A DNA stretch of 20,982 bases from a virus. The translations under genes were made by a program, and so were the position numbers. The stretch covers positions 1 to 20,982 of IMG/VR virus record IMGVR_UViG_3300025120_012988. One strand, written 5' to 3'. Every line of letters starts with the position of its first letter. Positions within the stretch are counted from its first letter, which is position 1. The notes below the pieces were generated by a model. That model saw nothing but the letters and a program-made list of their open reading frames with translations, ran no database searches and was not told the origin of the DNA. Shown here one piece after another: positions 376-20,982 of this stretch.

Positions 376-2148
376 TTACCCATCACAACTTATACAATCC
401 GGGTCCATCGCTTGTGCTGCAATATCACCTCTTAGAACCGATTCGGTTCTTGTATAATACAAAGTTTTTACACCTTGTTTCCAAGCCTCCAAATGAACTG
501 TATTCATCCACTTCGGAGTTGCCTCTGAAGGGAATGCTAAGTTCAATGAAACTGATTGGTCGATGTATTGTTGTCTAACACCAGCCTGTCTAACCAACTC
601 TAATTGATTAATCTCTTTGAATGTTTTAAACACATCTTTGACCCTATCACATTTGGTAGTATCTATATCACTATCTAATTGAGTTAATTTTCCATCACAA
701 TAAACCCAAGTATCTAATTCTTTGATATCTTGTACAGAACCACCATCTGCCATAATCTTATCCCAAGTATCTTTATTATTGATACCCACTTTTCTTAATG
801 CTTTTTCTAATTCTCTATTTTTTCTAATGAAAGTACCTTTTGCAGTTTGTTCCGTAAATACGTTTGCCGCCCAAGGTTCAATACCTGGTGAAACGTTACC
901 TGCCAACTTAGAGTTGGATACAGTTGGTGCAACTGCTCTTAGGTGAGTATTTCTCATACCACTATCTTTACACCACAATGGTTCACCTAATTCAGATGCC
1001 ATATCTCTACTTGCTCTTTCAGATTCAATTTTTAGTTGAGAGAATATCTTTCTAGTTTCGAACTGAGCTGGAAGTGAATCAAACGGAATACCTTTTTGTT
1101 GTAAATAAGTATGCCATCCTAATACACCTAATCCTAATGCTCTACCTTTTTCCGCCGAACGTACTGCGTTTTCGAATCCTCTCATATTCTTAGCTCTTTG
1201 TAAGAACTCTGATAGAATACCATCTAAGAACCAAGTTGCCGTATAAACTAAATCTGTATGTTTCCACTCATCATACTTTGATAGATTCAATGAAGATAAA
1301 CAACATACGAATGAATGATTTTCATCTGTATGTAAAGTAATCTCAGAACAGATGTTAGTCATATGAACTTTCAATCCATTATTTTTGTATTGTTCAGGAT
1401 TCTGTTTATTAACATTACCCTTATACATTACATATGGTTCACCAGTAGCTTTTCTCTTTTGAAGTACTTTACCCCATCTTCTACGAGCTTCGTTATCACC
1501 TTCATCTAACCTTCTCATAAATTTATCACCAACAACCACACATTGATGTAAATTCAAACATTGTCTGTTTACATCACCTTTAGGTTCTCTAATTTCAATC
1601 CACTCATCAAAATCATCATGTTCGATGTTGAGGTTAACTGATGCAGCTCCTCTTCTTACACTTCCTTGATTGGTTGCAAGAATAGTAGAATCGTAAATCT
1701 TAGCGAATGGTACAACACCATCGGATGTTCCATTTTGTGTAATGTTAGAACCAGCTGGTCGAATCATATTAATACCAACACCTACTCCACCACCATGTTT
1801 GGCGAGTAACATCATTTCTAAATTCTTAGTACCTATATCTTGGATTGAATCAGCTACATCGATTCCGAAACAACTGATTGGTAATCCTCTATCAGTACCA
1901 GTATTTGATAATACTGGCGTTGCGAGATTCAACCAACCCTTCCATATATAATCGAAGAACTTTGTTGCCATTTGAGGTTTACCTAATCTTCGAGCAGCTG
2001 TTGTTGCTACTCTCCAATAAGCATCTTTAGGTTTTTCACCTTCCAATAGATACCCCTTTGATATTGTCTTAACGTAGATTTCTGTGTTTGCCCAAGATGG
2101 AAAATCTACGTCTATTTCCCAATCAAATTCAGCTCCGTAATTTTTCAT
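376..2148 (-). CDS. nrdA: Ribonucleoside-diphosphate reductase large subunit (class I)
   Basis: This catalytic subunit reduces ribonucleotides to deoxyribonucleotides. All the key residues are visible. They are the redox Cys93 in PISCFG, the N265-I-C267-S-E269 catalytic triad, the second redox Cys282 or Cys283, the radical-relay tyrosines Y564-Y565, and a C-terminal tail CISCDG (C585, C588) that shuttles electrons from thioredoxin. At 590 residues it is shorter than E. coli NrdA (about 760) because the N-terminal ATP-cone is absent, so dATP inhibition through that domain is not expected. The start at 2148 overlaps the MazG stop as ATGA, indicating translational coupling. The order nrdB, mazG, nrdA, thioredoxin makes a compact nucleotide-supply operon. 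Host expression of dNTPs is presumably limiting for this phage, which is inference. Confidence 0.96.
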   Translation of the reverse strand: MKNYGAEFDWEIDVDFPSWANTEIYVKTISKGYLLEGEKPKDAYWRVATTAARRLGKPQMATKFFDYIWKGWLNLATPVLSNTGTDRGLPISCFGIDVADSIQDIGTKNLEMMLLAKHGGGVGVGINMIRPAGSNITQNGTSDGVVPFAKIYDSTILATNQGSVRRGAASVNLNIEHDDFDEWIEIREPKGDVNRQCLNLHQCVVVGDKFMRRLDEGDNEARRRWGKVLQKRKATGEPYVMYKGNVNKQNPEQYKNNGLKVHMTNICSEITLHTDENHSFVCCLSSLNLSKYDEWKHTDLVYTATWFLDGILSEFLQRAKNMRGFENAVRSAEKGRALGLGVLGWHTYLQQKGIPFDSLPAQFETRKIFSQLKIESERASRDMASELGEPLWCKDSGMRNTHLRAVAPTVSNSKLAGNVSPGIEPWAANVFTEQTAKGTFIRKNRELEKALRKVGINNKDTWDKIMADGGSVQDIKELDTWVYCDGKLTQLDSDIDTTKCDRVKDVFKTFKEINQLELVRQAGVRQQYIDQSVSLNLAFPSEATPKWMNTVHLEAWKQGVKTLYYTRTESVLRGDIAAQAMDPDCISCDG

Positions 2149-2447
2149 TCTTTTATAAACACTCCATTTTGTGTTTTCCCTTTTCTATCTTTTATTTCGT
2201 TCCACGCAGCTTCTAAACACTCTGATGGGTGTAATCCTAACTGCATTGATAGTATGATTAGTGTAACGAAAGAATCTCCGATTCCATCTACTAATTCTAC
2301 TCTATCATCTTTAAGGAGAGCTCCTGCAGTTTCACCCACTTCTTCCACAACCTTTAACATCTGTTTGGGGGCGTTATCTTCTACTAAGATACCTTTATCA
2401 TCTGCCCATCCGATTACGTTTGTAATCAATTCATCAAAATTCTTCAT
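2145..2447 (-). CDS. MazG-like nucleotide pyrophosphohydrolase
   Basis: This 100-residue all-alpha protein shows the MazG/dUTPase-type metal-binding signature. The E-x2-E motif is in EEVGE (residues 35-39), followed by E51-x2-D54 and D58 in ELVDGIGD. The family hydrolyses NTPs or dNTPs to monophosphate and pyrophosphate using Mg2+. Phage MazG proteins are usually proposed to clean the nucleotide pool or recycle host nucleotides. The substrate here cannot be read from the sequence. The gene lies between the two ribonucleotide reductase subunit genes and its stop overlaps the nrdA start by ATGA, which supports a nucleotide-metabolism role. The ATAAGTTATG start context recurs at the 623-residue tail gene. 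The length fits the short single-domain MazG-like class, not the two-domain bacterial MazG. Confidence 0.82.
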   Translation of the reverse strand: MKNFDELITNVIGWADDKGILVEDNAPKQMLKVVEEVGETAGALLKDDRVELVDGIGDSFVTLIILSMQLGLHPSECLEAAWNEIKDRKGKTQNGVFIKE

Positions 2448-2469
2448 AACTTATTTTTTTATTATTATT

Positions 2470-3465
2470 TTACCAAATATCGTTGAAATCTTCACCTTCG
2501 TTTGCCTTACTATAATCAGTAGGTCTTACTGCGAAGAAATCTGTATGTGTTGTTCCACCAGTTAAATGATAGAACCAGTCTAAATTAGATGCTTTAGTAT
2601 CATCAAATTCAAATGTAGGTTCGTAACCTAATTCTTTTAATTTCTCATTACCTCTTTTAGAGATAAATTCTTTTAGATTATCTGATTTTAGATTTTCTAA
2701 ATCACCCTGCTCAAATATCATATCAATGAATTTATGTTCCATTTCTACCATATATTTTGCTGCCTGATGTACATCATCTTTAACTTCATTATGAAGTTCT
2801 GGATATTCATTACACATTTCTCTGAATAGTTCACATCCCATTTTAGAATGTAGAGATTCATCTCTTACACTCCATTTCATTTGCTGTCCTATTCCCTTCA
2901 GAAGATTTCTCATCTGAAAAGAATATAGAACCGCAAAACTACTATATAGAGATACACCTTCTGCAAATGCCGAGAATATTGCTAATGACCTAGCTACTTC
3001 TTTTCGTGCTATAGGATTTGTTTGTAAATCCGTATGTGTCCATTCAGCAGTAGTAGATGTTAGAAAATCAAATTTTTGTGCAATTGCAGGTTCGTGTAGG
3101 AAAGCTTCAAAATCTTCTAAACCTAATGATTCGTTTAGATATGAGTAAGCTGTAGCGTGTATTGTTTCTTGTGAACCAAACATCATCGCCATTTGTTTGA
3201 TTTCATGTTTAGGAAACCATTTGGTTACCATTGTTGTCCAATAATCGGATACTGCACATTCTGTTTGTGCAAATCCTAAAAGGATATTTCCAACTAAATG
3301 TTTTTCAGATTCATCAAGATTCTCATTCCAATCTTTTAAATCACCCTGCATTGGTATTTCTGTATGTAACCAAAATGCTTGAGCTTGTTTTAACCAACCT
3401 TCGGTATAATATTGTGGGTACTCAAATGGTTTAAATGGGACTCTTTCTGTAAATAGTTGTTTCAT
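2470..3465 (-). CDS. nrdB: Ribonucleoside-diphosphate reductase small subunit (class I)
   Basis: This 331-residue ferritin-like radical-generating subunit partners NrdA. The expected di-metal ligands can be assigned as E69, E100, H103 (in SQETIHATAY), E169, E203 and H206 (in RDESLH). Tyr107 occupies the radical tyrosine position. The first ligand is Glu where E. coli has Asp, a substitution known from other small-subunit lineages. The tail ending in DFNDIW fits the C-terminal peptide that docks on the large subunit. The start at 3465 is preceded by AATTACAAAGATATG, a context nearly identical to that before the exonuclease gene. The gene follows the helicase after 53 bases; no promoter with the TTTGG-N19 pattern was found there, so it is probably transcribed from the helicase promoter. 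Assignment is firm; metal content is unknown. Confidence 0.95.
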   Translation of the reverse strand: MKQLFTERVPFKPFEYPQYYTEGWLKQAQAFWLHTEIPMQGDLKDWNENLDESEKHLVGNILLGFAQTECAVSDYWTTMVTKWFPKHEIKQMAMMFGSQETIHATAYSYLNESLGLEDFEAFLHEPAIAQKFDFLTSTTAEWTHTDLQTNPIARKEVARSLAIFSAFAEGVSLYSSFAVLYSFQMRNLLKGIGQQMKWSVRDESLHSKMGCELFREMCNEYPELHNEVKDDVHQAAKYMVEMEHKFIDMIFEQGDLENLKSDNLKEFISKRGNEKLKELGYEPTFEFDDTKASNLDWFYHLTGGTTHTDFFAVRPTDYSKANEGEDFNDIW

Positions 3466-3518
3466 ATCTTTGTAATTTTTTTATTATTTGTATTGTTGTG
3501 GGTTATAATATATATGGA

Positions 3519-4877
3519 TTAAAAATCAATATCTTTATTCATTTCATTATATTTTTGTAACAAATTCTTTCTCACTAACTCACCCCCTTTATTCATATCA
3601 CTTTGGGTTTTTTTACCATCAATGGAATCATCATTGTAAATATTGATTCTACCATTACTCATATTGGCTTTTGATGGTAGAGTCATCCCATCTGGTCCAA
3701 ATCTATTTTTTATTACGTGCCACCTACCTGTACCTGCTAATTTATCCTCAATCTTCCTACTAAGTGATACTACAAAATCTGCAGTCATCAGTTTTGAGAA
3801 TGAACCAGCTATAGAAGTACCAGTAATAACATCATCATTTGCTCCACTACGATTTATCTGAGATGCTGTAAATAATGGAACTTCATATTCACCTGCAATA
3901 CCTCTCAATCCCTCAACAATCTCTTCTAACTCTTCGTGTCTTTCTTTTCTACTATTACCCTTTAATAAATCAGCGTAATCTACGATAATCAAATCAGGTG
4001 ATTTTCCTTGTAGTTTAAGTTTATCTAATGATGCTCTCATTGTGTTTAATCCTGCAGATTTAGTGGGCCAATGTTTTACAACAATATTACCACTCAAACC
4101 TTCAACTTGCTTTCTAACATCATCTAAATTAAATTTAAGATTAGGAACTGCGATACCAGTTAATACTGAATCGTATCTCTGTCCTACATATCCCTCATTT
4201 AATTCTAATGTATAATGAACTACAGTCTTACCAGCTTTAGCAGCTGCCATACCAACATTCACCAATGCCCAAGATTTACCAATACCAGGAGGAGCAGCGA
4301 ACATAATCAATTCACCTTTACCAAAACCACCATCTACTAATTCATCAATTGCATCCCAACCACAAGAAACTACATTTCTAACAGTAGATTCATATCTTTC
4401 AATGATGTTTTCTTTATACTCATGTCCAACATCAGTATCTTGTCCAGCTTTCATTGCATCATCAATCTTCGATTTAATTACATCGAATTTACCATCACTT
4501 AATAAATCTACAGATTCTAATATTGCATTCTTAAAGGTTTGATTCTTACAGAATTCTAAAGATTGTTCTTTAACATACTCTAAATCGTCTGATTCTAAAC
4601 CATTCCAAACTTGTTTTAGGTTATCTACTATAGATTGTTTGAGAACATCTCTCTCAACCTTATCTACTTCGTTTTTAAACACATCTAAAGTTGGTAGTTG
4701 TGAAAACACATCAAAGTGAGATAATGTTTTTGTTACTATCCATTCATTTGCCTCTGAATCAAACATCTCAGGTTTAAGAATATCATACATCTGTTGTAAG
4801 AATATCCTATCTGATAATAGAGATGAAAGTATCTTTATCTGAAATGATGTACCAAATTTGTTTCCGAATTTATCCAT
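3519..4877 (-). CDS. Replicative DNA helicase, DnaB / T4 gp41 type
   Basis: This 452-residue protein has an N-terminal helical region (about 1-170) and a RecA-type hexameric helicase core. Walker A APPGIGKS is at 195-202, Walker B LIIVDY at 296-301, the sensor-like SQINRS at 339-344, and KNRFGP near 390 is the probable arginine-finger or loop region. This matches DnaB/gp41 helicases that unwind DNA 5'-3' at the fork and contact primase. No primase domain is fused. The start at 4877 lies only 8 bases beyond the -7 box of a strong promoter-like site (4884-4915), so its mRNA would be leaderless or nearly so, and no Shine-Dalgarno is present. The C-terminal end (about 405-452) is polar and poorly conserved in appearance. 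Confidence 0.9.
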   Translation of the reverse strand: MDKFGNKFGTSFQIKILSSLLSDRIFLQQMYDILKPEMFDSEANEWIVTKTLSHFDVFSQLPTLDVFKNEVDKVERDVLKQSIVDNLKQVWNGLESDDLEYVKEQSLEFCKNQTFKNAILESVDLLSDGKFDVIKSKIDDAMKAGQDTDVGHEYKENIIERYESTVRNVVSCGWDAIDELVDGGFGKGELIMFAAPPGIGKSWALVNVGMAAAKAGKTVVHYTLELNEGYVGQRYDSVLTGIAVPNLKFNLDDVRKQVEGLSGNIVVKHWPTKSAGLNTMRASLDKLKLQGKSPDLIIVDYADLLKGNSRKERHEELEEIVEGLRGIAGEYEVPLFTASQINRSGANDDVITGTSIAGSFSKLMTADFVVSLSRKIEDKLAGTGRWHVIKNRFGPDGMTLPSKANMSNGRINIYNDDSIDGKKTQSDMNKGGELVRKNLLQKYNEMNKDIDF

Positions 4878-4883
4878 ATTGTA

Positions 4884-4915
4884 CCAATATACGATTTATT
4901 ATTGTAACTACCAAA
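4884..4915 (-). promoter_or_regulatory. Bacteroidota-type promoter P2 (TTTGG-N19-TATATTGG)
   Basis: TTTGG (4911-4915) follows directly on the exonuclease stop codon, and the TATATTGG -7 box is at 4884-4891 with a 19-base spacer between TTTGG and TATATT. The helicase ATG begins at 4877, so initiation 4-7 bases past the box would give a leader of 0-4 bases. It probably drives helicase, nrdB, mazG, nrdA and thioredoxin. Confidence 0.65.
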
Positions 4916-5926
4916 TTATTTTCTAGTTTGTTTTGAATATTTATCCAAATCACCCCAAGAGTTTACTAACCACGTTTCTACATTCTTAAATGCAGTATAT
5001 AGTTTATCAACCATAAACTCTTTTTTGAATCCAAAAGAATTTAATCCGTTGATTGGTGAATCAATGATATTTCGTACATTTGATGTAATCGATGAACCCA
5101 TTATTGGTTCTGATAACTGCATTAAATCATAGTTTAATTTCAAAGTATCGGTATGTTCCAATATTTTGTTTTTCAGTTTCTCATCATCCAATTGAGATAC
5201 CCTTTCGAATAAGGTATCTAATGTTAATCCATCTGATTGAAGGAAATCTAATTTATTTATTAGTGTTTTAGGCCCGATTCCTTTTACGCCAGGAATATTA
5301 TCGGATTTATCACCATCAAAAATTCTATAATATACTAAATTCTTTGATGGAACTCCATATAACTCTTTTACATCCTCTTTGTGCATAAGTTTCTTTTTAG
5401 TTGGTAGATATACTGAAATTCTATCATCCACTAATTGTAAGAAATCCTTATCAGAGGAAATTATCATAACTTCTTTTTTAAATATATGTCTGGCAGCGTA
5501 TGCCATAATATCATCTGCTTCGATGTAATCAATATAACACAAATCAACAGGTAAGAACTCTAAGTATTTGATTAAAGTGTTAAAGTTACGTTTCATAGAT
5601 TCTGCCTGGTCCTCTAAATCTTCGTAACCAACCAATCTATTAACTTTAGTTAATCCTGTTCTACCTTCTTTGTACCCTTTATACATCTTCTTTCTACGAT
5701 GAGAACCACCCTTACCATCAAAAACTACCAACACTCTAGTTGGTTTGTTCTTACGAATAAGAGCGCCGAGAGATAACAGACAACCTGTTACCCCACCGAC
5801 ATGCTCTCCATCATCATTCAGAGTTGGAACTGCTCCAAAACACCTGATGAACAAATTCAATCCATCTACAATCATTACTTTATCATTAACATCCTTTGTA
5901 GGTGTTTCTGATAAGTTATTAAACAT
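4916..5926 (-). CDS. 5'-3' exonuclease / RNase H of the FEN family (T4 Rnh-like)
   Basis: This PIN-fold flap nuclease would remove RNA primers and flaps from lagging-strand fragments. Numbering from the longer frame opened at 5956, the acidic metal ligands are D31 (IVDG), D80 (VVFDG), E146/D148/D149 (EADD), D169/D171 (SSDKDF) and D216/D219 (DGDKSDN). They are followed by the helix-two-turn-helix GVKGIGPKT (223-231) typical of T5/T4 flap nucleases. I prefer the ATG at 5926 (Met11 of the longer frame). It comes 10 bases after the recombinase stop, and AATTACAAAGA before it exactly matches the sequence before the nrdB start. The longer form would overlap the recombinase gene by 20 bases. The 5'-3' nuclease family is clear; primer removal is the expected role by family. 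Confidence 0.9.
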   Translation of the reverse strand: MFNNLSETPTKDVNDKVMIVDGLNLFIRCFGAVPTLNDDGEHVGGVTGCLLSLGALIRKNKPTRVLVVFDGKGGSHRRKKMYKGYKEGRTGLTKVNRLVGYEDLEDQAESMKRNFNTLIKYLEFLPVDLCYIDYIEADDIMAYAARHIFKKEVMIISSDKDFLQLVDDRISVYLPTKKKLMHKEDVKELYGVPSKNLVYYRIFDGDKSDNIPGVKGIGPKTLINKLDFLQSDGLTLDTLFERVSQLDDEKLKNKILEHTDTLKLNYDLMQLSEPIMGSSITSNVRNIIDSPINGLNSFGFKKEFMVDKLYTAFKNVETWLVNSWGDLDKYSKQTRK

Positions 5927-5937
5927 TTCTTTGTAAT
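5927..5937 (-). promoter_or_regulatory. Non-Shine-Dalgarno translation start context shared with nrdB
   Basis: The minus strand here reads AATTACAAAGA then AATG, overlapping the recombinase TAA stop. The same 11-mer stands directly before the nrdB ATG (AATTACAAAGATATG). The match selects the inner start of the exonuclease gene. It lacks pairing potential for a normal anti-Shine-Dalgarno, as in many Bacteroidota genes. Confidence 0.4.
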
Positions 5938-7061
5938 TAGATTTCGTGCGTATCATTCAATTGTGTTGTATCTGTATTTGCGTTTTCCGTTGCTTCTTTA
6001 TATCCTAAGATATATGCATCACAGATTTGTTTATACATTTGTTCCTTTACCTCTGGTCTTTCTTCTAAGAGTTTTGTAAACCCTTTTGCTTGAAATTTGA
6101 TTTCTTCTCCAGTTGATTCATCAACCCAAGTATACCAAGCTCCAGCTATCTGTATTAATTTATACGTTTTCATAGTATTCAACCACGAACCATATCTATC
6201 AATACCTCTATCAAAATAGATTTCAAAATCAACTGCTCTTAATGGTGGGCCCATTCTGTTCTTTATAACCTGTACTCTGGTTTTAATACCAACAGTTTGG
6301 TCAACACCACCTACTTTAGAATTAAGTTTACCCATTTGTTTCATTCTTAATCTACAACTAGCGTGAAAACCTAATGCTTTCCCACCTGATGTAGTGTAAG
6401 GGTCTCCAAAGGATACTCCTAATCTAACTCTAAGTTGATTTGTAAATACAACCAATATTCTCTCTCTACCAATAAGATTTGTAATCTTTCTCATTGCCTT
6501 TGAGATAATGATTGCTTTTTGAGTAGCATAACCCGCCTGGTCATAATCAGCTGACATTTCTACTTTAGTAGTGGCCGCCGCAACGGAATCTACTACTATA
6601 GTTACCAATCTATCTTTATTAGTTTTTCTAATTGATTCGATAATTGAATCCATAGCATCAAAGATATCTTCTACCGCTTCTAAAGGTACATAAAGTAACT
6701 TTTTGGTATCAACACCTAATGCTTCTAAGAATTCTTGATTGATTGCGTTCTCTGTATCGATATACACTGCCATTCCACCCTTCTTTTGGGTATTTGCTAA
6801 TGTATGTGCTGCTAACAGAGATTTACCACTCGCTTCTAGTCCCGTAACCTCAACAATCCTTCCGACAGGAAATCCACCATTTGGTCGATTCGATATAGCT
6901 AAATCTAACATATCGTCTCCAGTCGACACCCACTCTGTTAAATCGGTGGGTGTCTGTTCGGAGCCATCTAGGAAGTAAGCTACTTTGGATTGTCCTTTGA
7001 ACTTTTTATTAAGGTTATCTGCTAAAATCGATGATAATTCATCTCGATTTGTTTTAGCCAT
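5937..7061 (-). CDS. RecA/UvsX-type recombinase
   Basis: This 374-residue strand-exchange ATPase has a RecA core. Walker A GLEASGKS is at 74-81, the catalytic glutamate is in DTEN (E104), Walker B TIVVDS ends at about 159, the FTNQL sensor (N208-Q209) follows, and GDPYTTSGGKALGFHAS is the conserved DNA-binding loop 2 and downstream strand. The sequence resembles bacterial RecA more than T4 UvsX in this loop, but the gene context (binding protein, FEN nuclease, DnaB-type helicase) is that of T4-like recombination-dependent replication. A polar C-terminal tail extends beyond about residue 355. It lies 12 bases after the single-stranded DNA-binding protein gene and is probably co-transcribed with it. 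The context before its ATG (ATAAGTTATAAATG) resembles that of mazG. Confidence 0.94.
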   Translation of the reverse strand: MAKTNRDELSSILADNLNKKFKGQSKVAYFLDGSEQTPTDLTEWVSTGDDMLDLAISNRPNGGFPVGRIVEVTGLEASGKSLLAAHTLANTQKKGGMAVYIDTENAINQEFLEALGVDTKKLLYVPLEAVEDIFDAMDSIIESIRKTNKDRLVTIVVDSVAAATTKVEMSADYDQAGYATQKAIIISKAMRKITNLIGRERILVVFTNQLRVRLGVSFGDPYTTSGGKALGFHASCRLRMKQMGKLNSKVGGVDQTVGIKTRVQVIKNRMGPPLRAVDFEIYFDRGIDRYGSWLNTMKTYKLIQIAGAWYTWVDESTGEEIKFQAKGFTKLLEERPEVKEQMYKQICDAYILGYKEATENANTDTTQLNDTHEI

Positions 7062-7073
7062 TTATAACTTATT

Positions 7074-7865
7074 TTAATTATTGAATAAATCTTCAAATGC
7101 ATCTTTTACATCTGAATTTGTTGAATTACTCGCAACTGCCTGTGGTTGTGGAGTTGATTGAGTATTGTTTTGAGTTGGTGTAGATTCTTCTTCTTTAGAA
7201 TCATCCCCTACTTGACCAGTTTCCATCCAAGTTTCCAATAAACCTTTCATATCATCATAAGTATATTTCTTAAACATACCTGGTAATTCAATTTGGTCTT
7301 TTACAGATTCTAAAACGTTTTTATCTTCTGTAATTGGAGTTTGGTTTGGTTTAACTCTGATATAAGTTTCAGGATAGTTCTTACCTAACTCTTTAGCGGT
7401 TTTAAACTCAACAGTAATATCTCTACCACTAGTCGGGTCTGTTAAATCACCATAATCTGGGTCTGCGAAGAAAGCAAGTAGTTCTTGATACACAGTTTTA
7501 CCAAATCCCCAAAATTTGATTCCTTCAGATTCTTCACCTCTAACGATAACAGGAACATAAGTTCTCATTTTCGGAGTAAGTTGTTTTGAAAGATTCCAAT
7601 CGTTTCTATCACCAGTCGATTTCAATTGGTCAGCGAACTCCACTAATGGGTCTGCCTCACCATGTGTTTGAGGTGATAGAATATTCTTACCACCAAAATT
7701 GTAGTGGAAAAATAATTCGATAAATGGATTTGATGGATTGTGAACGTAAGGTACTATTCTTACTTGTTGTTTACCAGGTTTTGGTTTCCATAGGTTGTCA
7801 GTCTTTGTAGTTTTCGTTTGTAGACTGTCCAAACGGTTTCGGATTGCATTTAAGTCAATTGCCAT
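7074..7865 (-). CDS. Single-stranded DNA-binding protein (gp32-like)
   Basis: This 263-residue protein has a central OB-fold-like region (about 25-190) rich in aromatic residues suited to stacking on bases, for example in FFHYNFGGKN (52-61) and GIKFWGFGKTVYQ. A flexible acidic C-terminus ends DVKDAFEDLFNN, the tail used by such proteins to recruit replication partners. Unlike T4 gp32 it contains no cysteine, so the gp32 zinc site is missing. It is directly upstream of the recombinase and exonuclease genes, the arrangement expected for a T4-type replication core. Translation starts at 7865 after AAAAAAGGTAAATT, and the same AAGGTARATTATG context precedes the 214-residue tail gene. Two tandem promoters lie upstream. 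The family call is by overall features and context, not by a single diagnostic motif. Confidence 0.8.
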   Translation of the reverse strand: MAIDLNAIRNRLDSLQTKTTKTDNLWKPKPGKQQVRIVPYVHNPSNPFIELFFHYNFGGKNILSPQTHGEADPLVEFADQLKSTGDRNDWNLSKQLTPKMRTYVPVIVRGEESEGIKFWGFGKTVYQELLAFFADPDYGDLTDPTSGRDITVEFKTAKELGKNYPETYIRVKPNQTPITEDKNVLESVKDQIELPGMFKKYTYDDMKGLLETWMETGQVGDDSKEEESTPTQNNTQSTPQPQAVASNSTNSDVKDAFEDLFNN

Positions 7866-8551: not shown

Positions 8552-10762
8552 TCAAACACCTAATTTTCTTCGTTCTTTAGAAGAAATTTCAGGTTCAGGT
8601 GGATATAATTCCTTATTTGCATCATACAACTCTTTACCAAAATCTGTAGCTATTTGAAATTCTAAACCAACACTTGATGCGTAACCCTGTCCTTTTTGTC
8701 TACACTTAACTTCTGCTATTCTAACACTTTTAGCGGGTTCTTTAGATTCATAGACGAGATAGTTATCACCATTCTCATCCTCTTTCATAGTTAAACCTGC
8801 TTTAAAATCTTTATAGTTATTAATACCAAATATATTTTCTAAAGTTTTTGGGTCTGCGGATAACCCACCTATAGCCATCTTTTCTTCACCCTCTAGTAAA
8901 GATTTCATTGGTAGTTTTTCTGCTAAGGCATTTAAACATCCCTCTTTTGCATCTTCATCTTCAACTAAAAATTGTATCGTATCGTTTTGGTATCTTTTAA
9001 TTGAACCTTCTGGATATTTACCATCATCACCCTTTTCATAACCTAAATGATTATTTAAGAATTCACTTGATTGTGTTTTACCCTCAGTACCACTTGCTAT
9101 TTCATTAGCTCTTGTAACAGCCGCGTGCATAAGACTATATTTTTTAAATCTATCTGCTGCACCTGTACCCATTACTTCTTTAAATCTCTTTGCATCTATT
9201 GGTGGTGGTACATCCATCGATGATAATTTATTTAAAATCTTTTCTGCTTTAGGTTCTATTTTATATCCTTTTTTTGCATCACCTGATACAACACCTAATG
9301 CAGCTAAACTATTTTTTAAGTTTTTATCTTTTAATACATTTTTATTAAGTAGATTATTTTTTTTGTAATCTAAAGTTTTAGTATTTTCAAAATATTTTTT
9401 AGGTCTTTCAATTTCACCTTTTTTATATTGTTTAATATCAGCACGAGGTGGGACATTAGGTGACCATTTATCAATATCAGTTACAACTCCATTATATATG
9501 TTTGCGGTTGTATCTTTTTTAAGTGATATTTCATCTAAAACAGGCTTTCCTTCAACTTCTAATTTAACATACATATCACTTGAAAATCCTTTATTAGCAT
9601 TATAATCATCGTTACCTAATGCTTCAAATTCATTTGGTACATCCCACGCAGAATTACTAATTTCCCAATTACCTTTTCCAAATTGTTCATCATACCTTTT
9701 ATTAGTAACAGCTCTTACATTTTTTACCGATTCTAACCAGTCTTTTGTTACAACCCCACCTTTACCTTTAGGATATTTATCAACTTGACTATTTAATGTA
9801 TCAATAAACCCATTAAACTCATCATCATTCATCCCTATACTTGCCATTGTAATTATTTCACCAGCTTGTGATTGTAATTGTCCTGCACCAACACCACTCA
9901 TATACTCTGTAATACTTTGTTTACCATTTTTAGTATTCATTAATCTAGTAATTACTTTTTGGTATTTTTTGGGTATCTTACCACTTTTAAAATAATCATC
10001 TAATTGTGATTCTTGTAATGCATCTTTAGGATTCTCATATGGGGAAGATAATCCTTTTTCTTTGAATTCATCATCAGATATACCTGTTTCTGATTCTGTA
10101 TAAACTTTAGATTCAGATGTGTTCACATCTTTTAGTGATTTATCTTTTTGACCTGGTTCACCAGTTTTTAATTCTTTTGATGTTTTTGAGATATCATCAG
10201 TAGATTTATCTGATTTATCATCCTCTTTAGCCTTCTCAATATCATCTTTTGATGGAGTTGTATGGTTTTGTGGATTTGCTTTCTTTACTGTGTAAACCGA
10301 ACCTGATTTCTTATTCTTAACGTAAACATCTTCTTTTTTTAACTTGTCTTTTTCGAGAGCAGTGAGAGCACCTTTTTTGAGATTTTTGATAACTTTTTCT
10401 TTATCACCCCCACTATCAGGTCTTTCTTTATCTGTTGAATCTTTTTCTTCATCGTTTTCTTCCTCTTCGTTTTCGTCTACTAAATCTTCTTCTTCATCAT
10501 CATCACTATGTAGATGTGCAGATACTGCCGTATCATTTGTACCTACTACGATACCTGATGTTCTATCACCACCTAAATGAAAATTAGTAGGAGTTTTAAC
10601 TGCTGATTCAATGATGTATTCTATTACCTCATCATCGAAATTGTATTCTTCTTTTAATATTTTTCGTAAACCATCAATGGATTGCTCCGATAACGGATTT
10701 GTAAGGTCTGTTCCAACCTCTACCCACCATAACCTGGCTAATTCGTTAAGAAATTCTTTCAT
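8552..10762 (-). CDS. Large acidic phage protein of unknown function (736 aa)
   Basis: The function is not recognised. Residues 1-55 form a helical start with LARLWWVEVGTDL. Residues 86-110 are a very acidic run of Asp and Glu. Residues 110-250 are a Lys/Ser/Asp-rich, probably disordered linker. Residues 250-736 look folded, with DEISLKKDT (410-418) and a C-terminal stretch around 678-703 that includes EVKCRQKGQG. The DEISLKK segment resembles the SLK-type core strand seen in some phage nuclease-like (PD-(D/E)xK) proteins, but the acidic residues do not line up convincingly, so I make no enzyme claim. Translation is coupled to the polymerase gene by an ATGA overlap at 10759-10762. The acidic arm could be a DNA mimic or a protein-binding tail. 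It could also be a virion protein. Confidence 0.75.
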   Translation of the reverse strand: MKEFLNELARLWWVEVGTDLTNPLSEQSIDGLRKILKEEYNFDDEVIEYIIESAVKTPTNFHLGGDRTSGIVVGTNDTAVSAHLHSDDDEEEDLVDENEEEENDEEKDSTDKERPDSGGDKEKVIKNLKKGALTALEKDKLKKEDVYVKNKKSGSVYTVKKANPQNHTTPSKDDIEKAKEDDKSDKSTDDISKTSKELKTGEPGQKDKSLKDVNTSESKVYTESETGISDDEFKEKGLSSPYENPKDALQESQLDDYFKSGKIPKKYQKVITRLMNTKNGKQSITEYMSGVGAGQLQSQAGEIITMASIGMNDDEFNGFIDTLNSQVDKYPKGKGGVVTKDWLESVKNVRAVTNKRYDEQFGKGNWEISNSAWDVPNEFEALGNDDYNANKGFSSDMYVKLEVEGKPVLDEISLKKDTTANIYNGVVTDIDKWSPNVPPRADIKQYKKGEIERPKKYFENTKTLDYKKNNLLNKNVLKDKNLKNSLAALGVVSGDAKKGYKIEPKAEKILNKLSSMDVPPPIDAKRFKEVMGTGAADRFKKYSLMHAAVTRANEIASGTEGKTQSSEFLNNHLGYEKGDDGKYPEGSIKRYQNDTIQFLVEDEDAKEGCLNALAEKLPMKSLLEGEEKMAIGGLSADPKTLENIFGINNYKDFKAGLTMKEDENGDNYLVYESKEPAKSVRIAEVKCRQKGQGYASSVGLEFQIATDFGKELYDANKELYPPEPEISSKERRKLGV

Positions 10763-12021
10763 ATTGTTCCGTTTATTTCTAAATCGATAGATTTCATCTC
10801 TGAATAACTATCTCCGATTTCTACCTTTGTAGGAAAACCATTCCCTTCTATAAGTATCTGAAAATCTTTTAAAAGTTTATTTTCAGTTGGATGTATATCT
10901 AATAAGTATGAATCATAAGTATATAAAACTATTTTTGATTGTTTATCTTCCAAAAACCCAACTAATTTACTTAATATCTTCATATTTAACTCTGTTTCGG
11001 TAGCTTGTAACATATAGTTGAATAATTTGTTAGCATTCATATCTCTAAGGTTAGATTTTGATAGTTTTCTACCCAATGGAGTTTCAACCCAACCCCTACG
11101 ATTAAATTCCATCCACATTTTATCAATTTTGTGTGAAACTTTTGAGAATAAAGGAATATGTAGATATTCCTCTTGTACTCCACCATATAATTGTCGGAAT
11201 GTTATTCCTTTTGAATCTCCATAAGATACTCCATACATATCTGCTAAGGTTTGGTGTCCACTCACATCCAATGGAATTGGTTCACCTACCATCTTACCAA
11301 TAATACGTGGGTGATAAGCATCGTAATCGAATTGTACCAATTTACCCCCATCGAACCTACTAATAAATCTATCCCTACTACCATCATCTTTATTAAGTGC
11401 AGCATAATTTACACCACCGTAATTGTTTGAAGGACGAGATGTTGTTGTGAATGGATGATACTGAGTCCACTCTAACCCATTTGTAGTATGTATCCCATTT
11501 CGTTCCACTAAGTGTAATGGCTTTATATAGAAATTTTCAAATTTCTTCACACAATCGAAGATTTCCCCACCCAAATCGTAATACTGTAGGAATTCATCTT
11601 TCACATCTCTTATTGATTCTATGTGTTTTGATGTAGGAATAAGATTATTAACACCTTTGAGAGTATTGAATCTACGATGATAAAAAAGATGTGTTGGTGT
11701 TAGATTAGATTCTAGTGGGGAATTCGATTGTAAATATTTTACTAAACTCGCATCATATGAGTTTGGTATCTGAAGAATGTTTAAGAACGATTTGTTATCG
11801 TATATATATGATTCTTTGAAATTAAACGTAAACTTATCTAATGTGGTTGTATGGTTGTCAATATTTTTTAAGTTGATTAGAACCTCTGTATCGTTGGTTA
11901 TATCGTATATATACAACATAGATAACCCATCATTATGTGGGTGCACAGATATACTCTCCCATATTGGGTGAATATATACCTTATCCATTGTGATATTACC
12001 ACTACTTAGAAATTTAACCAT
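10759..12021 (-). CDS. Short, divergent family A DNA polymerase (no exonuclease domain)
   Basis: The C-terminal half carries the family A polymerase palm and fingers. The TTTSRPSNN...NYAAL stretch (192-209) corresponds to the T-G-R-L-S-S...NLQN motif. Motif A is FDYDAYHPR (231-239, catalytic D232), motif B is KGITFRQLYG (271-280, with K271, F275 and Y279 in place) and motif C is LYTYDSYLL (366-374, D370). Two usually invariant positions differ: the motif A glutamate (E710 in E. coli Pol I) is His237, and motif C HDE is Tyr-Asp-Ser. At 420 residues there is no room for a 3'-5' or 5'-3' exonuclease, and the first 190 residues are unrecognised. The ATG at 12021 lies 5 bases from a -7 box, so the mRNA is probably leaderless unless Met12 is used. 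It could be a repair or accessory polymerase. Confidence 0.78.
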   Translation of the reverse strand: MVKFLSSGNITMDKVYIHPIWESISVHPHNDGLSMLYIYDITNDTEVLINLKNIDNHTTTLDKFTFNFKESYIYDNKSFLNILQIPNSYDASLVKYLQSNSPLESNLTPTHLFYHRRFNTLKGVNNLIPTSKHIESIRDVKDEFLQYYDLGGEIFDCVKKFENFYIKPLHLVERNGIHTTNGLEWTQYHPFTTTSRPSNNYGGVNYAALNKDDGSRDRFISRFDGGKLVQFDYDAYHPRIIGKMVGEPIPLDVSGHQTLADMYGVSYGDSKGITFRQLYGGVQEEYLHIPLFSKVSHKIDKMWMEFNRRGWVETPLGRKLSKSNLRDMNANKLFNYMLQATETELNMKILSKLVGFLEDKQSKIVLYTYDSYLLDIHPTENKLLKDFQILIEGNGFPTKVEIGDSYSEMKSIDLEINGTI

Positions 12022-15241: not shown

Positions 15242-15541
15242 TTATTTATTAAGATTATTATATTCGTCTAGGATTCCTAAATAATTTTCTGGTATTCTAA
15301 TTTGTTTTCCGATTGGAATTGATAAATCACCCTTACCTAAATAATTAGCTCTTGCTAAAATCCACCATAATCGTGCATCCCCATAATATTTATGAGCTAA
15401 GTTATCTAACCTATCTCCTTGTATGGCAATTATATATCTATCATCTACAGTTTTAGCCATTTTAGGATATACTACACTTTTTTTGTATCGTTTACCCTTT
15501 TCAGTTCTTAATATATCTATATCTTCGTATCTATTTTCCAT
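15242..15541 (-). CDS. LysM-domain baseplate wedge protein (gp53-like)
   Basis: This 99-residue protein has one LysM domain at about residues 35-84. It contains RYIIAIQGDRLDNLAHKYYG, then DARLWWILARAN and the closing IPIGKQIRIP, all typical of phage tail LysM proteins such as T4 gp53, which joins the baseplate wedge. The RLWWILARAN variant is characteristic of the tail group, not of secreted cell-wall LysM proteins, and there is no signal peptide. Its ATG (15539-15541) touches the upstream stop codon (TAAATG), so translation is probably re-initiated by the same ribosomes that make the 1046-residue baseplate protein. The stop lies 12 bases before the hub-like gene. Confidence 0.82.
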   Translation of the reverse strand: MENRYEDIDILRTEKGKRYKKSVVYPKMAKTVDDRYIIAIQGDRLDNLAHKYYGDARLWWILARANYLGKGDLSIPIGKQIRIPENYLGILDEYNNLNK

Positions 15542-18500
15542 TTATTGTCTCCACCCTAAATCATAAACTTTACCGTCAAACTCTGGTCGTACCGTATCTA
15601 ATACTTTAAATCCAATAGCAACATCAATTCCCATTGGTCTTACTCCTAAATCAGATTTATCTAAATTTACATCCCAAGGTGCATCATCTGAGAATGTGTA
15701 TGTTAATGAATCTATAAAGGATAGTTTATTTTTATATAAATCACCTAATGTAAATTTAACTAACATTCCTTGATATCCCTTAGAACCTGCATACTCAGGC
15801 ATTGTAAATGTTGAAAGTGCTTCTAATTTTTCATACATTGGTTTCATTTCGATACGAGATGTTGCCCACATTTGAAAATTAAAAGATACACTTCTTTCAA
15901 ATGTACCATATTTGTATCCTTGGTCTGCTCTACCACTAAATTTAATAGAATCCCAAGATGGTGAGAATGTTTCTGTTAATCCTGTTATAGTTCCTCTAAA
16001 TTGATAAAACTTACCATCTGTACTTCCTATTGGTTGTATATAGAACTTAACTAAGTCATCTTTTAGTTCACCTTCACTTGAAACAGGTCTCAATGCGTTT
16101 ACTACATCCCATCTTGTATTACCAGCATGTGAATCTGTAGGAGTATAATCAACTCTATCTTCACCTACAATGTTTTTTGCAGGATTACTAAATTTTTGAT
16201 TATATTCTAAATTATTTTCTGTATAATTTGATTTTTCTGAACGTTCTTTTTCTTTTCCAGTTAGTAAACTTCTAAAATCATTTACTTGAGTATCACCTGC
16301 ACCTCTTGTTGGTATGTTACCATATGCAAGAGTTTCATATTGTTTTATAACATCAGATGTTTCTAGTTTTTCTATAGGATGTGATTCACCATCTGTATTT
16401 TTATTACCAGGATTATATCCCTTATTGGCCTTTTTACCTAAATCAGTTCCATCTGCAAATTCTTTTAAATCACCTGGTTTACTACTTCCTTCATAATACT
16501 TTTCTTCAGTATTATATACTCTACCAGCTGGTGATGTTGGAAGTTCTAATTCTTTTGGTAATTTTTTATCTAAATAATCTTTTTTATCAACATCAGATGG
16601 AGTAGATATTTCGTTCTTATCTGCTAATTGGGTTTTATCTCTATCAAATGGAACACCCTCATCTGGTTTGTATTGTTTTTGATAAGTGTTTCCTTCAAAT
16701 TTGGTTTTTAAGGTATTTTCTCCTAATGAGTTTGCACCCAAACCTACCGCTAATCCGTATAATGATTGAGGTCCACCACTAAATGCACTTTTTAATTTAG
16801 CAAGTCCTTTTACTGCTTCATCTACACCCTTTGTTATACCAGCAGTTGTTGAGAATGTATTTGCCCATAAATTTCCTAATCGATTTGCTAAAGGGCCTTT
16901 GGTTAAGGTTATATCATCTATTTGGGCCACCTTTTTTATATTTTGAACTTCTGTATAACCACCTGTTAATGGGTCGAATGGAGTAATACCATGTCTCCTA
17001 TGTCTAATACCCGTATGTTGTGTTAGAACATTTGCTAATAAGTTTACAGGTGTCCATATTTTTGTAAGTCTTGGCCCTACATTAAATGGTAATGCAGTTT
17101 CTACATTTGGATTCGATGCCTGTAAACCTAATTGTTTAACACCCCATAATAAACCTTCTACAGATGCCATCCATGCACCGATTCGTGCGGCATCTACTGC
17201 TGCTCTTACGGTAGATGTAACCACACCACCTCTGATTAATCCTTCATCATATGCAAAACCACCAATACCCCATCTTTGTGGTTCTCCTTTAGATATACCT
17301 TTTCTTTGAATACCTCTTAGTATCAATGGATGTCTAAATAATCCTAATCCTGTATTAAACGAATCTTCTTTTAGATTGAATTTATTATACATTTCATCTA
17401 AGAAAGATGGTGATTTTCTTTTGGCATGTCCCATACCAATTCCAAATCCTTCTTCACCTGAATTAATACCACCTGCATCATTATATGAACTACCATATGT
17501 TTTACCTAAAGTAAATGTATTATTAGATATATTAGAGTACAATGAGTTTGCACTATCAAATACGGTATTATTAGGATTTACTCCAATAAATTTAGTTGCC
17601 TCAACACCACCAAACTTAGAGGTAAATCCCTTTGAGTGAATATCTAACAGATTGTTTACTTCTTTAAAATCCTTACCTTCTGATTCTAACTTCTTTTTAA
17701 ATGAAAAATCAGTTGGTGTTGTCTCACCTAAAAATTGAGTTGAAGGTTCTGCAGAATTAGGTGTTGTTTCACCTAAGAACTTAGAACTTCTATCTGATTC
17801 ATTAGGTGTTGTTTCTCCTAAGAATCTTGATTCATTATTTGCAGGATTTGGTGTCGTTTCACCTAAGAATCTTGATTCATTATTTGCAGGGTTCGGTGTT
17901 GTTTCTCCTAATGCCTTTTCTCCATTTGGAATGTTCATAGGATTAGGTGTTGTTTCACCTAAGAATTTAGAACTTCTATCTGATTCATTAGGCGTTGTTT
18001 CACCTAAGAACTTTTCACCCGTCTGAGGATTCATTTCTGTTGGGGTTGTTTCACCTAAGAATTTAGAACTTCTATCTGATTCATTGGGTGTTGTTTCACC
18101 TAAGAACTTTTCACCACTCTGTTTACTCATCTCATTAGGAGTGGTTTCTCCTAAGAACTGAGATTGATTATTCATTTCCGATGGAGTAGTTTCTCCTAAG
18201 AATTGTACCCTATTATTAGCTTCTTTTGGAGTAGTTTCTCCTAAGAATTGTTCAGAGTTGTTCATTTCAGTAGGTGATGTTTCACCTTTGAACTTTTCTG
18301 ATTGGTTAACTAATGTGGGTGATGTTTCACCTTTAAACTTTTCCGATTGGTTAACCATCGTTGGGTCTGTTTGCCCTAAATATCTTTCTACTAAACTCAT
18401 TGGTTTAGGAGTTGTCTCACCTTTGAACTTTTCTGAGTTATCCATAGGTTGAGGTGAAGTTTCACCTTTAAACTTTTCTGATTGATTTACTTTTTGAGGA

Positions 18501-18682
18501 TTTACACCTTCTTTATTAACTGTAGTAGTAGAGCGTGGAATCTTAGGAGCAGATTCTGCTAAAGAACTCAAAGGAGTTTTATTTAAATTTTTGTTTATAC
18601 CAGGATTTTCTTTAGATTTCAAAGGTTCTTTCTTTGGCATCCTAAACTTAGATAAATCCGATTTCATGTCTTTTAGTGCCAT
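15542..18682 (-). CDS. Large baseplate/tail protein with N-terminal LGETTP repeat array (1046 aa)
   Basis: Residues 1-64 are basic and disordered. Residues 66-325 are 17 short repeats with core F-L/K-G-E-T-T/S-P. Residues 390-660 hold a region with RHPLILRGIQRKG and GIRHRRHGITPFDPL, and some hydrophobic helices. Residues 670-855 are polar linker. Residues 861-1046 form a compact domain with the pattern FSPSWDSIKFSGRADQGYKY, then ERSVSFNFQMWA, PEYAGSKGYQGM and PWDVNL...IDVAIGFKVL. This last pattern recurs in baseplate or tail proteins of many large myoviruses. The gene lies between the tape measure and the LysM gp53-like gene, with 3- and 0-base gaps. A baseplate role is therefore likely. The repeat array is unusual; see the separate entry. 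The exact T4 equivalent is uncertain. Confidence 0.72.
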   Translation of the reverse strand: MALKDMKSDLSKFRMPKKEPLKSKENPGINKNLNKTPLSSLAESAPKIPRSTTTVNKEGVNPQKVNQSEKFKGETSPQPMDNSEKFKGETTPKPMSLVERYLGQTDPTMVNQSEKFKGETSPTLVNQSEKFKGETSPTEMNNSEQFLGETTPKEANNRVQFLGETTPSEMNNQSQFLGETTPNEMSKQSGEKFLGETTPNESDRSSKFLGETTPTEMNPQTGEKFLGETTPNESDRSSKFLGETTPNPMNIPNGEKALGETTPNPANNESRFLGETTPNPANNESRFLGETTPNESDRSSKFLGETTPNSAEPSTQFLGETTPTDFSFKKKLESEGKDFKEVNNLLDIHSKGFTSKFGGVEATKFIGVNPNNTVFDSANSLYSNISNNTFTLGKTYGSSYNDAGGINSGEEGFGIGMGHAKRKSPSFLDEMYNKFNLKEDSFNTGLGLFRHPLILRGIQRKGISKGEPQRWGIGGFAYDEGLIRGGVVTSTVRAAVDAARIGAWMASVEGLLWGVKQLGLQASNPNVETALPFNVGPRLTKIWTPVNLLANVLTQHTGIRHRRHGITPFDPLTGGYTEVQNIKKVAQIDDITLTKGPLANRLGNLWANTFSTTAGITKGVDEAVKGLAKLKSAFSGGPQSLYGLAVGLGANSLGENTLKTKFEGNTYQKQYKPDEGVPFDRDKTQLADKNEISTPSDVDKKDYLDKKLPKELELPTSPAGRVYNTEEKYYEGSSKPGDLKEFADGTDLGKKANKGYNPGNKNTDGESHPIEKLETSDVIKQYETLAYGNIPTRGAGDTQVNDFRSLLTGKEKERSEKSNYTENNLEYNQKFSNPAKNIVGEDRVDYTPTDSHAGNTRWDVVNALRPVSSEGELKDDLVKFYIQPIGSTDGKFYQFRGTITGLTETFSPSWDSIKFSGRADQGYKYGTFERSVSFNFQMWATSRIEMKPMYEKLEALSTFTMPEYAGSKGYQGMLVKFTLGDLYKNKLSFIDSLTYTFSDDAPWDVNLDKSDLGVRPMGIDVAIGFKVLDTVRPEFDGKVYDLGWRQ
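17705..18487 (-). repeat. In-frame repeat array, 17 units of 45 or 51 bp
   Basis: The repeats code for residues 66-326 of the 1046-residue protein. The cores begin at residues 71, 86, 101, 116, 131, 146, 161, 176, 193, 208, 225, 240, 257, 272, 287, 302 and 317, so the period is 15 residues except for three units of 17. Early units read FKGETSP; later ones FLGETTP. Variants are YLGQTDP and ALGETTP. All periods are multiples of three bases and synonymous codons vary, so selection acts on protein. Confidence 0.9.
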
Positions 18683-18685
18683 TTA

Positions 18686-20982
18686 TTATCCCCCAAAATA
18701 ACCAGCTGACCTGGTACTTAATTTTCTTGATTGAACTTTTGTTATCTCACTTACCACTTTACCATCTACATTAATCATAATTGGTTGATTTTGTATATCT
18801 TGTCGTAATCCTTTAATCTCATCTACTACTTCTGCCATTGATGAAGAATCACCACCACTACTTTCACTATCTCCACCACCACCTAATGCATCTGATATAA
18901 GAGGTAATGCGAATGCAAGAGCAAATAGAGTTGGAAGTAATAATGTTACTATTGCCAATCCACCACTTAGAGCTACTAACGATGCTGATAAAATTAGGAA
19001 TGAAGCAGATAGTGCAATTAATCCTGGAACTAACATAATCATTGCGGCCATCATCGGCATTACTCCTAAGAACGCCGTTAAGTTTGGCATCAATCTTTCT
19101 ATTGAGTTTGATAAAGCTGATAATGATAAAGCCCACATATTTGTTGCAATTGATGATATTAACATTGCAGGTACTAATGCTAACACCCCTAACGTTGTTG
19201 CGGTAAATGTTGGGAAGAATGGAATCATTGCTGCCGTTGTAGCCAATAGAGCTCCACTAAATACCATAAATGCAGAACCTACTGTAATTAGATTAGGAGC
19301 TTGTTCTACTAATTTTGTTACACTTTCAACAAATGATGGTAATACCGCGGCCAATGCTGTTATACCAGCAACAAATGGTATCATTGCCAATCCAAACATT
19401 AACATTGGTGGAGTTGCAATTAGTAATCCTAATGCAAATGGTATTAAAGCATATCCAAACGCCATTAAAGGAATAACCGCACCTAACATCATTGGAGCTA
19501 TTGAAATTAGTTCAGCCATTTTCTCAACGAATAGTGAAATATTATCTCCTAATCCACCAACTCCTTTATTGAATAAAACTACACCTGCACCTAATACAAT
19601 TAATGCGGCTCCTAATGCTAATAATGCCAATACACCAGCTCCGAATATCATCGCTCCTATACCACTAAACATTACTAAACCTAACCCCATTATAATTCCT
19701 GTAAATATAAGGATTCCGGCCGCAACCGCTAAGATTGCACCTATACTAATATCACCAATTAGATTCATTGCGAATGCAAATGGAATTAATGATACACCAA
19801 CCACTGCTAATGCGAGTGCTCCTTTTAATAAATCTGCAGTTGGGAATTTAGCAAGAAGATAAAGTGCTCCTAACATTAATCCCAATCCAACCGCCATTCC
19901 TAAGTATGGAGCTGGGTCTGTTGGCATTTTTGAAATCGCCATTGCCATAACAAACATACTCGCCGCAACTAATAACATAGCCGCCGCTCCTTTAAGAACA
20001 TCACTACTTCCAAATTTACCTATAAAGTTTGCTATAGGGTTTGAACCTTTTTTGGATTGAAGAAATTTAGGTGTTGGTAGTTTCCCCATCAACAATAAAA
20101 TACCATATACAACTAAACCACCTGCTGCGATTGCAGCTAATACTGTTACAACAGTTCCTAATGTGCCTAATGCATCTGAAGGGCCTGCATCTAATTCTTT
20201 TCCACTATTTACAGCTTCAGCGGTTGCGTTTTGCATACTCATCATTTCATCAACAGATAATCCTGTTGCTTCTGAAATTTGTCTTTGAAGTTGTAAGTTA
20301 CTACCTAATGATGGCCCTACCGAATCAATTAATGCTTTTTGTTCTTTGGCCATTGCCAATGCATCACCAGATGCTTGTGCTGCTCTAATTCCATCGAAAC
20401 TGATATTTTTACCTGTTATCATTCTCAACTTCATTTCATCCTTCATAGATTTTTCGATATCTAAAGATTCAGATGCTAAATCTTTCATCTTCTTCATATC
20501 AATACCCATCTTTTTCAGTTGGATTACTTCGGTAGCTCTTTGTTTAAGTTGGTCTTTTGTTAAAGTTCTAACTAATGCTTGATTATCTGCGAAATATTCC
20601 ATCGCAGGGCCTGCATCTTGTCCTAAACTTTGACCTATTTCTTTTACTTCGTTTGCTAAATCACCCGCATCAATTCCAGCATTTTGTAATGTTCTGGTTA
20701 ATGATGTTGCCGCTTTAGGGTCTGATAATAATGCATTTACTTCTGTAATATCTGCAAGTAATGATGCAGGTGGATTGATTTGACCTGTTGCATCTCTAAG
20801 TGCTTTTGCGGATTCGGCAACTTCTTCAAAAGAATATAAAAATGGATTTAAGGATAATTGTGCACCTTTGATAGAACCTTCTAATTCCATCGCTTGAGAT
20901 GCTGATGCACCTGTTTCTTTGGATAAATCTTTCATCCTCTTAACAGCATCACCAATAAAACTTGCTATTTCTTTAAAGATTG
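18686..20982 (-). CDS. Tail tape measure-like protein (partial, start outside window)
   Basis: The reading frame is open to the right edge. The first in-window Met is at 20935, but the codons upstream (reading ...SFIGDAVKR) continue without a stop, so the true start lies beyond 20982. At least 764 residues are present. The N-terminal part is helical and amphipathic. The middle, roughly residues 255-690, is a long alternation of hydrophobic stretches rich in Ala, Gly, Leu and Ile, the usual look of tape measure proteins, which span the tail tube and enter the host membrane during injection. The C-terminus has a Gly/Ser linker and ends in KLSTRSAGYFGG. It precedes the baseplate genes, as tape measures do. 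The coiled-coil length and peptidase domains could not be judged because the N-terminus is missing. Confidence 0.8.
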   Translation of the reverse strand, partial: IFKEIASFIGDAVKRMKDLSKETGASASQAMELEGSIKGAQLSLNPFLYSFEEVAESAKALRDATGQINPPASLLADITEVNALLSDPKAATSLTRTLQNAGIDAGDLANEVKEIGQSLGQDAGPAMEYFADNQALVRTLTKDQLKQRATEVIQLKKMGIDMKKMKDLASESLDIEKSMKDEMKLRMITGKNISFDGIRAAQASGDALAMAKEQKALIDSVGPSLGSNLQLQRQISEATGLSVDEMMSMQNATAEAVNSGKELDAGPSDALGTLGTVVTVLAAIAAGGLVVYGILLLMGKLPTPKFLQSKKGSNPIANFIGKFGSSDVLKGAAAMLLVAASMFVMAMAISKMPTDPAPYLGMAVGLGLMLGALYLLAKFPTADLLKGALALAVVGVSLIPFAFAMNLIGDISIGAILAVAAGILIFTGIIMGLGLVMFSGIGAMIFGAGVLALLALGAALIVLGAGVVLFNKGVGGLGDNISLFVEKMAELISIAPMMLGAVIPLMAFGYALIPFALGLLIATPPMLMFGLAMIPFVAGITALAAVLPSFVESVTKLVEQAPNLITVGSAFMVFSGALLATTAAMIPFFPTFTATTLGVLALVPAMLISSIATNMWALSLSALSNSIERLMPNLTAFLGVMPMMAAMIMLVPGLIALSASFLILSASLVALSGGLAIVTLLLPTLFALAFALPLISDALGGGGDSESSGGDSSSMAEVVDEIKGLRQDIQNQPIMINVDGKVVSEITKVQSRKLSTRSAGYFGG

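Follow-up and report, generated by a model that had tools for sequence, protein, structure and literature searches.

A tail protein of a marine virus carries, ahead of a C-terminal domain resembling that of tail-tube initiators, an array of short repeats whose number follows the length of the tape-measure protein (TMP) encoded next door. Across some 60 relatives this coupling suggests that the tail contains a second, ring-matched strand, apparently undescribed so far. Our preferred reading, to which we assign a probability of roughly 60%, is that arms anchored at the initiator run along the tail tube beside the TMP, with one repeat unit for each ring of the tube. Phage tails are the textbook example of a length set by a molecular ruler made of one protein; here a second protein, the tube initiator, would bear a countable repeat that follows the ruler ring by ring.

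The array and its gene

The window, by which we mean the whole stretch of 20,982 bases analyzed here, is a viral contig and probably a fragment. Its array-bearing tail protein, P0001, has 1046 residues (15542..18682 on the minus strand, stop codon included). The protein begins with an N-terminal segment, residues 1-62 (MALKDMKSDLSKFR...; 18497..18682, minus strand), which is conserved in relatives: M1, L3, K7, S8, L10 and R14 are invariant among the 38 that were aligned. The array occupies residues 63-323 (17714..18496, minus strand) and consists of 17 units of 15 or 17 residues ending in FLGETTP or FKGETSP. The motif of these units, [F/Y/A][L/K]G[E/Q]T[T/S/D]P, starts at residues 71 to 317, and the spacing from one unit to the next is 15 residues in thirteen cases and 17 residues in three. 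The initial annotation of the window had described just such an array at 17705-18487, which agrees with ours to within a few bases, and the gradient from FKGETSP to FLGETTP that it reported along the array is real. Between the array and the C-terminal domain lie residues 324-860 (16103..17713, minus strand), a region with conserved alignment columns, including a conserved stretch at residues ~428-563 in the alignment of relatives, and with no confident fold according to AF2. The C-terminal, tube-initiator-like domain itself, as delimited by AF2 and by structure matches, comprises residues 861-1046 (15545..16102, minus strand).

The strict form of the motif, [FY][LK]G[EQ]T, is found 16 times in P0001, compared with at most once in 2000 shuffles of its residues. 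At the level of DNA, all 16 core matches in the window (16/16) fall inside the array, and the reversed-pattern control yields 0. The proposal that the array grew by local duplication and homogenization holds in part. Blocks such as NESDRSSK do recur within the array, but the codons for the Gly, Thr and Pro of the motif differ synonymously between units, which suggests that the units are alike through selection on the peptide and not through recent copying of the DNA. When the whole protein is folded without a partner, AF2 predicts no structure for the array (pLDDT about 29-45), as expected of the disordered arm that had been suggested.

Distribution among viruses

A protein search with P0001 retrieves 43 related viral loci. 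A search for the DNA pattern alone, which asks for two units at a distance of 45 bases and for no further part of the protein, retrieves at least 119 viral stretches; among the matches listed, every array-bearing open reading frame matches the P0001 family in its N-terminal, middle or C-terminal region, or in more than one of these. Thus the array is neither missing from close relatives nor an artefact of assembly, the two outcomes that would have spoken against the initial annotation: relatives carry it, and it occurs in many independent contigs.

The number of units varies across the family from about 4 to 25, and it rises with TMP length. Among 48 non-redundant members the spacing is exactly 15 residues in 524 of 558 cases (94%) and 17 residues in 22 of the 558, and the array starts at residue 61-63 in nearly all of these members. 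The linkers between units vary but draw on a limited vocabulary. The arrays of L068 and of L036/L044 are interrupted by other types of repeat (LESNFSNQSPIVGTG; TPITPxYxGYY).

In 84,980 prokaryote genomes, one per species, the array pattern gives a single isolated match, in Saccharothrix, which is likely due to chance; we therefore reject the idea of a mobile or host-shared motif. Within eight long viral records, matches to the array are confined to the array gene, except for one lone match in Mel-JY01.

A tube-initiator-like domain in a contractile tail

Neither Pfam nor PHROGs assigns a function to P0001, and a sequence search of the PDB returns no matching chain. Because the AF2 model of the whole protein is poor (pLDDT 43), the C-terminal domain was folded separately, and the last 206 residues (841-1046) then reach a pLDDT of 83.7. 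According to Foldseek and VIA, the best matches of this model, with Z about 10-12, are chains at the junction of baseplate and tube in P1, PVC, AFP, T4, A-1(L), phiCD508 and Mu; general tail-tube proteins score lower, with Z of 7-8. The model thus indicates a domain with the fold of a tail-tube initiator, and it supports the earlier placement of the motif in a baseplate protein with a conserved C-terminal domain. In T4, gp48 and gp54, each in six copies, occupy the junction of baseplate and tube and there form the platform on which the tube polymerizes (PMC3004832).

The gene also has the position of an initiator gene, between tape-measure and baseplate genes. Directly upstream of the array gene is the TMP gene (18686..20982, minus strand), which runs off the end of the contig, leaving the last 764 residues, and which is recognized by its identity to the TMP of L010. 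Directly downstream, as the next gene in the operon, is a gene of 99 residues for a tail protein X / LysM-type baseplate protein (15242..15541, minus strand; PF05489 over the cut-off, and phrog_7145, baseplate wedge subunit). The window's copy of the TMP has no family match of its own in Pfam or PHROGs; in relatives, 4 of 40 upstream neighbor proteins match phrog_167 (tail length tape measure). The window contig ends short of the sheath and tube genes. All eight long records, however, have a sheath gene that exceeds the Pfam cut-off, and all eight have gp19-like tube matches with E of 1e-5 to 5e-7, which fall below it. Therefore, the tails of these phages are contractile.

As for the other genes of the window, directly downstream of the tail genes is a set of replication and nucleotide genes (376-7865, minus strand), with both subunits of ribonucleotide reductase, a DnaB-type helicase, a 5'-3' exonuclease, a RecA-like recombinase and a gp32-like protein. 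For a protein of 420 residues (10759-12021, minus strand), the match to family A DNA polymerase (phrog_17) is confined to the C-terminal part of the polymerase, and this protein is followed by a protein of 736 residues without a family match (8552-10762, minus strand).

Unit number follows tape-measure length

We use TMP length as a proxy for tail length. Degenerate units were counted by register, and profile-based counting was used in the set of 48 non-redundant genomes. Across this set, unit number and TMP length are correlated with r=0.956, a slope of 25.7+/-1.2 residues per unit and an intercept of 462. Thirteen non-redundant genomes from a later scan, held out from this fit, give r=0.84, a slope of 24.8 and an intercept of 459. 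One genome, L149, was excluded from the later fits because the start of its TMP looks misassigned; the combined set without it (n=60) gives r=0.948 and a slope of 24.7 (bootstrap interval 22.4-26.7), with a reduced-major-axis slope of 26.0 and a median error of 0.84 units.

The coupling persists under independent contrasts on a tree built from the non-array part of the protein, where the floor placed on branch lengths moves r between 0.81 and 0.95: with almost no floor we obtain r=0.81 and a slope of about 17-17.5, and with a floor of 0.05 we obtain r=0.94 and a slope of 24.4. The control, which sets TMP length against the length of the protein outside the array, stays below r=0.1 under contrasts. 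Without tree correction, the rest of the same protein gives r=0.09 and the hub-position gene r=0.25.

Some genomes depart from the line. L056, L156, L195 and L233 lie off it by 3 to 5 units (L233 has 18 units versus 12.7 predicted, and L195 has 16 versus 12.8), and the close relatives L056/L114 and L030/L032 are one unit apart at equal TMP length. In addition, the intercept leaves about 460 TMP residues without matching units.

The TMPs contain repeats of their own. In their hydrophobic C-terminal half, tandem repeats have a length of 80, 52 or 56 residues (L012:2787-5993, L016:2462-5437, L056:4535-7234), and other TMPs of the family repeat at 62 or 65 residues. It is possible that these tandem repeats are a unit of tail-length evolution. 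A Fourier search for a 26-residue period in the TMPs gave nothing clear, and a lag search gave mixed periods.

Since the coupling is with TMP length, the units might pair with the TMP itself, one for each helical segment of roughly 26 residues, keeping its hydrophobic helices covered or apart until injection, with the tube ring playing no direct part. The variable C-terminal half of the TMP is indeed strongly hydrophobic, and repeats of 52 and 80 residues are near 2 and 3 times 26. The repeats of 56, 62 or 65 residues in other family members, however, are not multiples of 26. Moreover, when the two parts of the TMP are fitted separately, the non-repetitive N-terminal part counts about as much as the hydrophobic C-terminal part (0.046+/-0.007 and 0.038+/-0.002 units per residue, respectively). 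Therefore the array follows total TMP length, for which R2 is 0.937, as against a weaker 0.874 for the C-terminal part alone. We regard direct pairing with the TMP as unlikely.

Probably one unit per tube ring

Individual differences between close relatives tell the same story as the regression. The TMP of the window (764 residues present) aligns without gaps to the last 764 residues of the 913-residue TMP of L010, at 92% identity, and the window and L010 both have 17 units, several of which differ in sequence from the tenth onward. Between the TMPs of the window and of L012, the sole gap is an insertion of 160 residues, in a region of 80-residue tandem repeats; alongside this insertion L012 has six more units than the window, or 26.7 residues per unit.

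The TMP of TP901-1 extends by about 0.145-0.15 nm per residue (PMC5099701). At 1.45-1.5 A per residue, slopes of 24.7-26.7 residues correspond to about 36-40 A per unit, and the 26.7 residues that separate the window from L012 correspond to about 39-40 A. Published values for the rise of a tube ring are 39 A for phiCD508, a contractile phage (PMC11948020), and 40.6 A for T5 (PMC8718954). From this agreement we infer about one array unit per tail-tube ring, which would explain why the length of the units is fixed while their linkers drift in sequence. A unit of 15 residues can span the distance between rings at about 2.6 A per residue, and the limit for an extended chain is roughly 3.5 A per residue.

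The fixed spacing, together with a unit number coupled to TMP length, suggests that the partner of the array recurs periodically along the tail. The multivalent binding proposed in the initial annotation is thus retained in part: the many copies probably bind one repeating partner, but a free arm that serves a chaperone or a packaged effector does not fit the fixed spacing and the coupling with the TMP.

According to the ring-by-ring reading that we prefer, the C-terminal domain of P0001 would join the initiator ring on the baseplate, and the N-terminal arm of the initiator subunits would run up the tail along the tube, around or beside the TMP. Each 15-residue unit would occupy one hexameric ring of the tube, with the FLGETTP core binding the same site on every ring and the 8-residue linker spanning to the next. 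Given one unit per ring, the number of units would have to match the number of rings set by the TMP. The 460 or so TMP residues of the intercept may lie alongside parts of the arm outside the repeats, or have no arm beside them. The arm may set tail length, proofread it, or only stabilize the tube and the TMP, and sequence does not discriminate among these roles. We offer, tentatively, the stronger proposal of a second ruler borne by the initiator, in which unfolded arms anchored at the baseplate, one unit per ring, set or proofread the number of rings together with the TMP. If this is true, then arm and TMP must co-evolve in ring-sized steps.

The arm might instead follow the outer face of the tube, between it and the sheath, with one unit per sheath-tube ring, where it would tie the sheath to the baseplate or prime sheath assembly. 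These phages have a sheath, and the extended tail has the same ring periodicity and hence would yield the same regression. But the sheath shortens on contraction and the tube does not, so that a bound arm would have to detach; and the neighbors of the initiator domain, as well as the TMP with which the array is coupled, would sit at the tube axis. We prefer the lumen, where the TMP lies and where an arm, unlike one on the sheath side, would not have to cope with contraction, and we consider the outer route quite improbable. We give very little credence to a free disordered arm whose many short linear motifs bind by avidity to some partner, in the host or the virion, that has nothing to do with tail length, and whose coupling with the TMP would be a by-product of shared ancestry. 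In favor of such an arm are the lack of predicted structure in the array by itself and the fact that tandem repeats commonly change in number. Against it, the coupling survives the contrasts and the hold-out set, the rest of P0001 is uncoupled from TMP length, the spacing stays fixed as linkers drift, and the window and L010 keep 17 units and a gapless TMP alignment despite several replaced units.

Under the preferred reading of one unit per ring, the array count offers an estimate, from sequence, of relative ring number in uncultured phages. Through the array one may also examine the register between the rings of the tube and what the tube contains, a matter that symmetrized cryo-EM maps rarely resolve. 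The copy number is a prediction that can be checked by one virion structure.

Comparison with known systems

The initial annotation knew of no described system with this motif, and we likewise found no counterpart of the coupling between array and tail length in the open-access literature. Among the closest comparisons are relatives of P0001 itself. In the Microcystis phage Mel-JY01 (PP395634) the homologue has 2255 residues (L052:4693-11460). Like P0001, this protein and those of L169-L174 have homologous middle and C-terminal regions, an N-terminal arm of tandem repeats, and an adjoining gene in the TMP position. Unlike the window, they have a different unit of 44 residues, VNYFDxxxxxTxxGFHTFAQLYDTKYIPESSIFDWDGKREQAP, present in 15 to 22 copies (about 22 in Mel-JY01). 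In four of these genomes the upstream gene is complete, and its length correlates with the length of the whole protein (r=0.9997, n=4) and with the length from its start to the middle domain (r=0.98, n=4), which is suggestive of coupling in a second lineage. We reject one 44-residue unit per ring, since the counts do not fit TMP length.

Conversely, the Flavobacterium phage immuto resembles the window in its C-terminal domain and in its gene order, with the homologue adjoining an annotated tape measure, but it has no LGETTP array. Its homologue (L053:7690-9840) has 716 residues and keeps the C-terminal domain. More generally, the homologues in immuto phages and L175-L177 have 446-716 residues, with the C-terminal domain and without the array, and despite this absence their upstream TMP-position genes encode 1006-1186 residues. 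Thus a long tail does not in general require the array, and in these phages the TMP alone probably suffices for tail length. From the immuto relatives one might guess at a flavobacterial host for members of the array family.

Beyond these relatives, T4 gp48/gp54 and the junction chains of PVC, AFP, P1, A-1(L), phiCD508 and Mu share with P0001 both the C-terminal fold and a gene position between tape-measure and baseplate genes. To our knowledge, none of these initiators bears an extended arm of tandem repeats or has repeats whose number tracks the TMP.

Tape measures such as lambda gpH, T4 gp29 and the TP901-1 TMP are length-bearing elements that follow tail length, and the array resembles them in following TMP length; the TP901-1 TMP, with repeats of 11/18 residues (PMC5099701), also holds short repeats. 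We do not class the array as a tape measure, as it has no predicted helix in a low-confidence model of the protein alone, without its partner. Unlike the tape measures, P0001 has an initiator domain and 15-residue units, and it exists in addition to an ordinary TMP, encoded by its own adjacent gene, whose length the array tracks.
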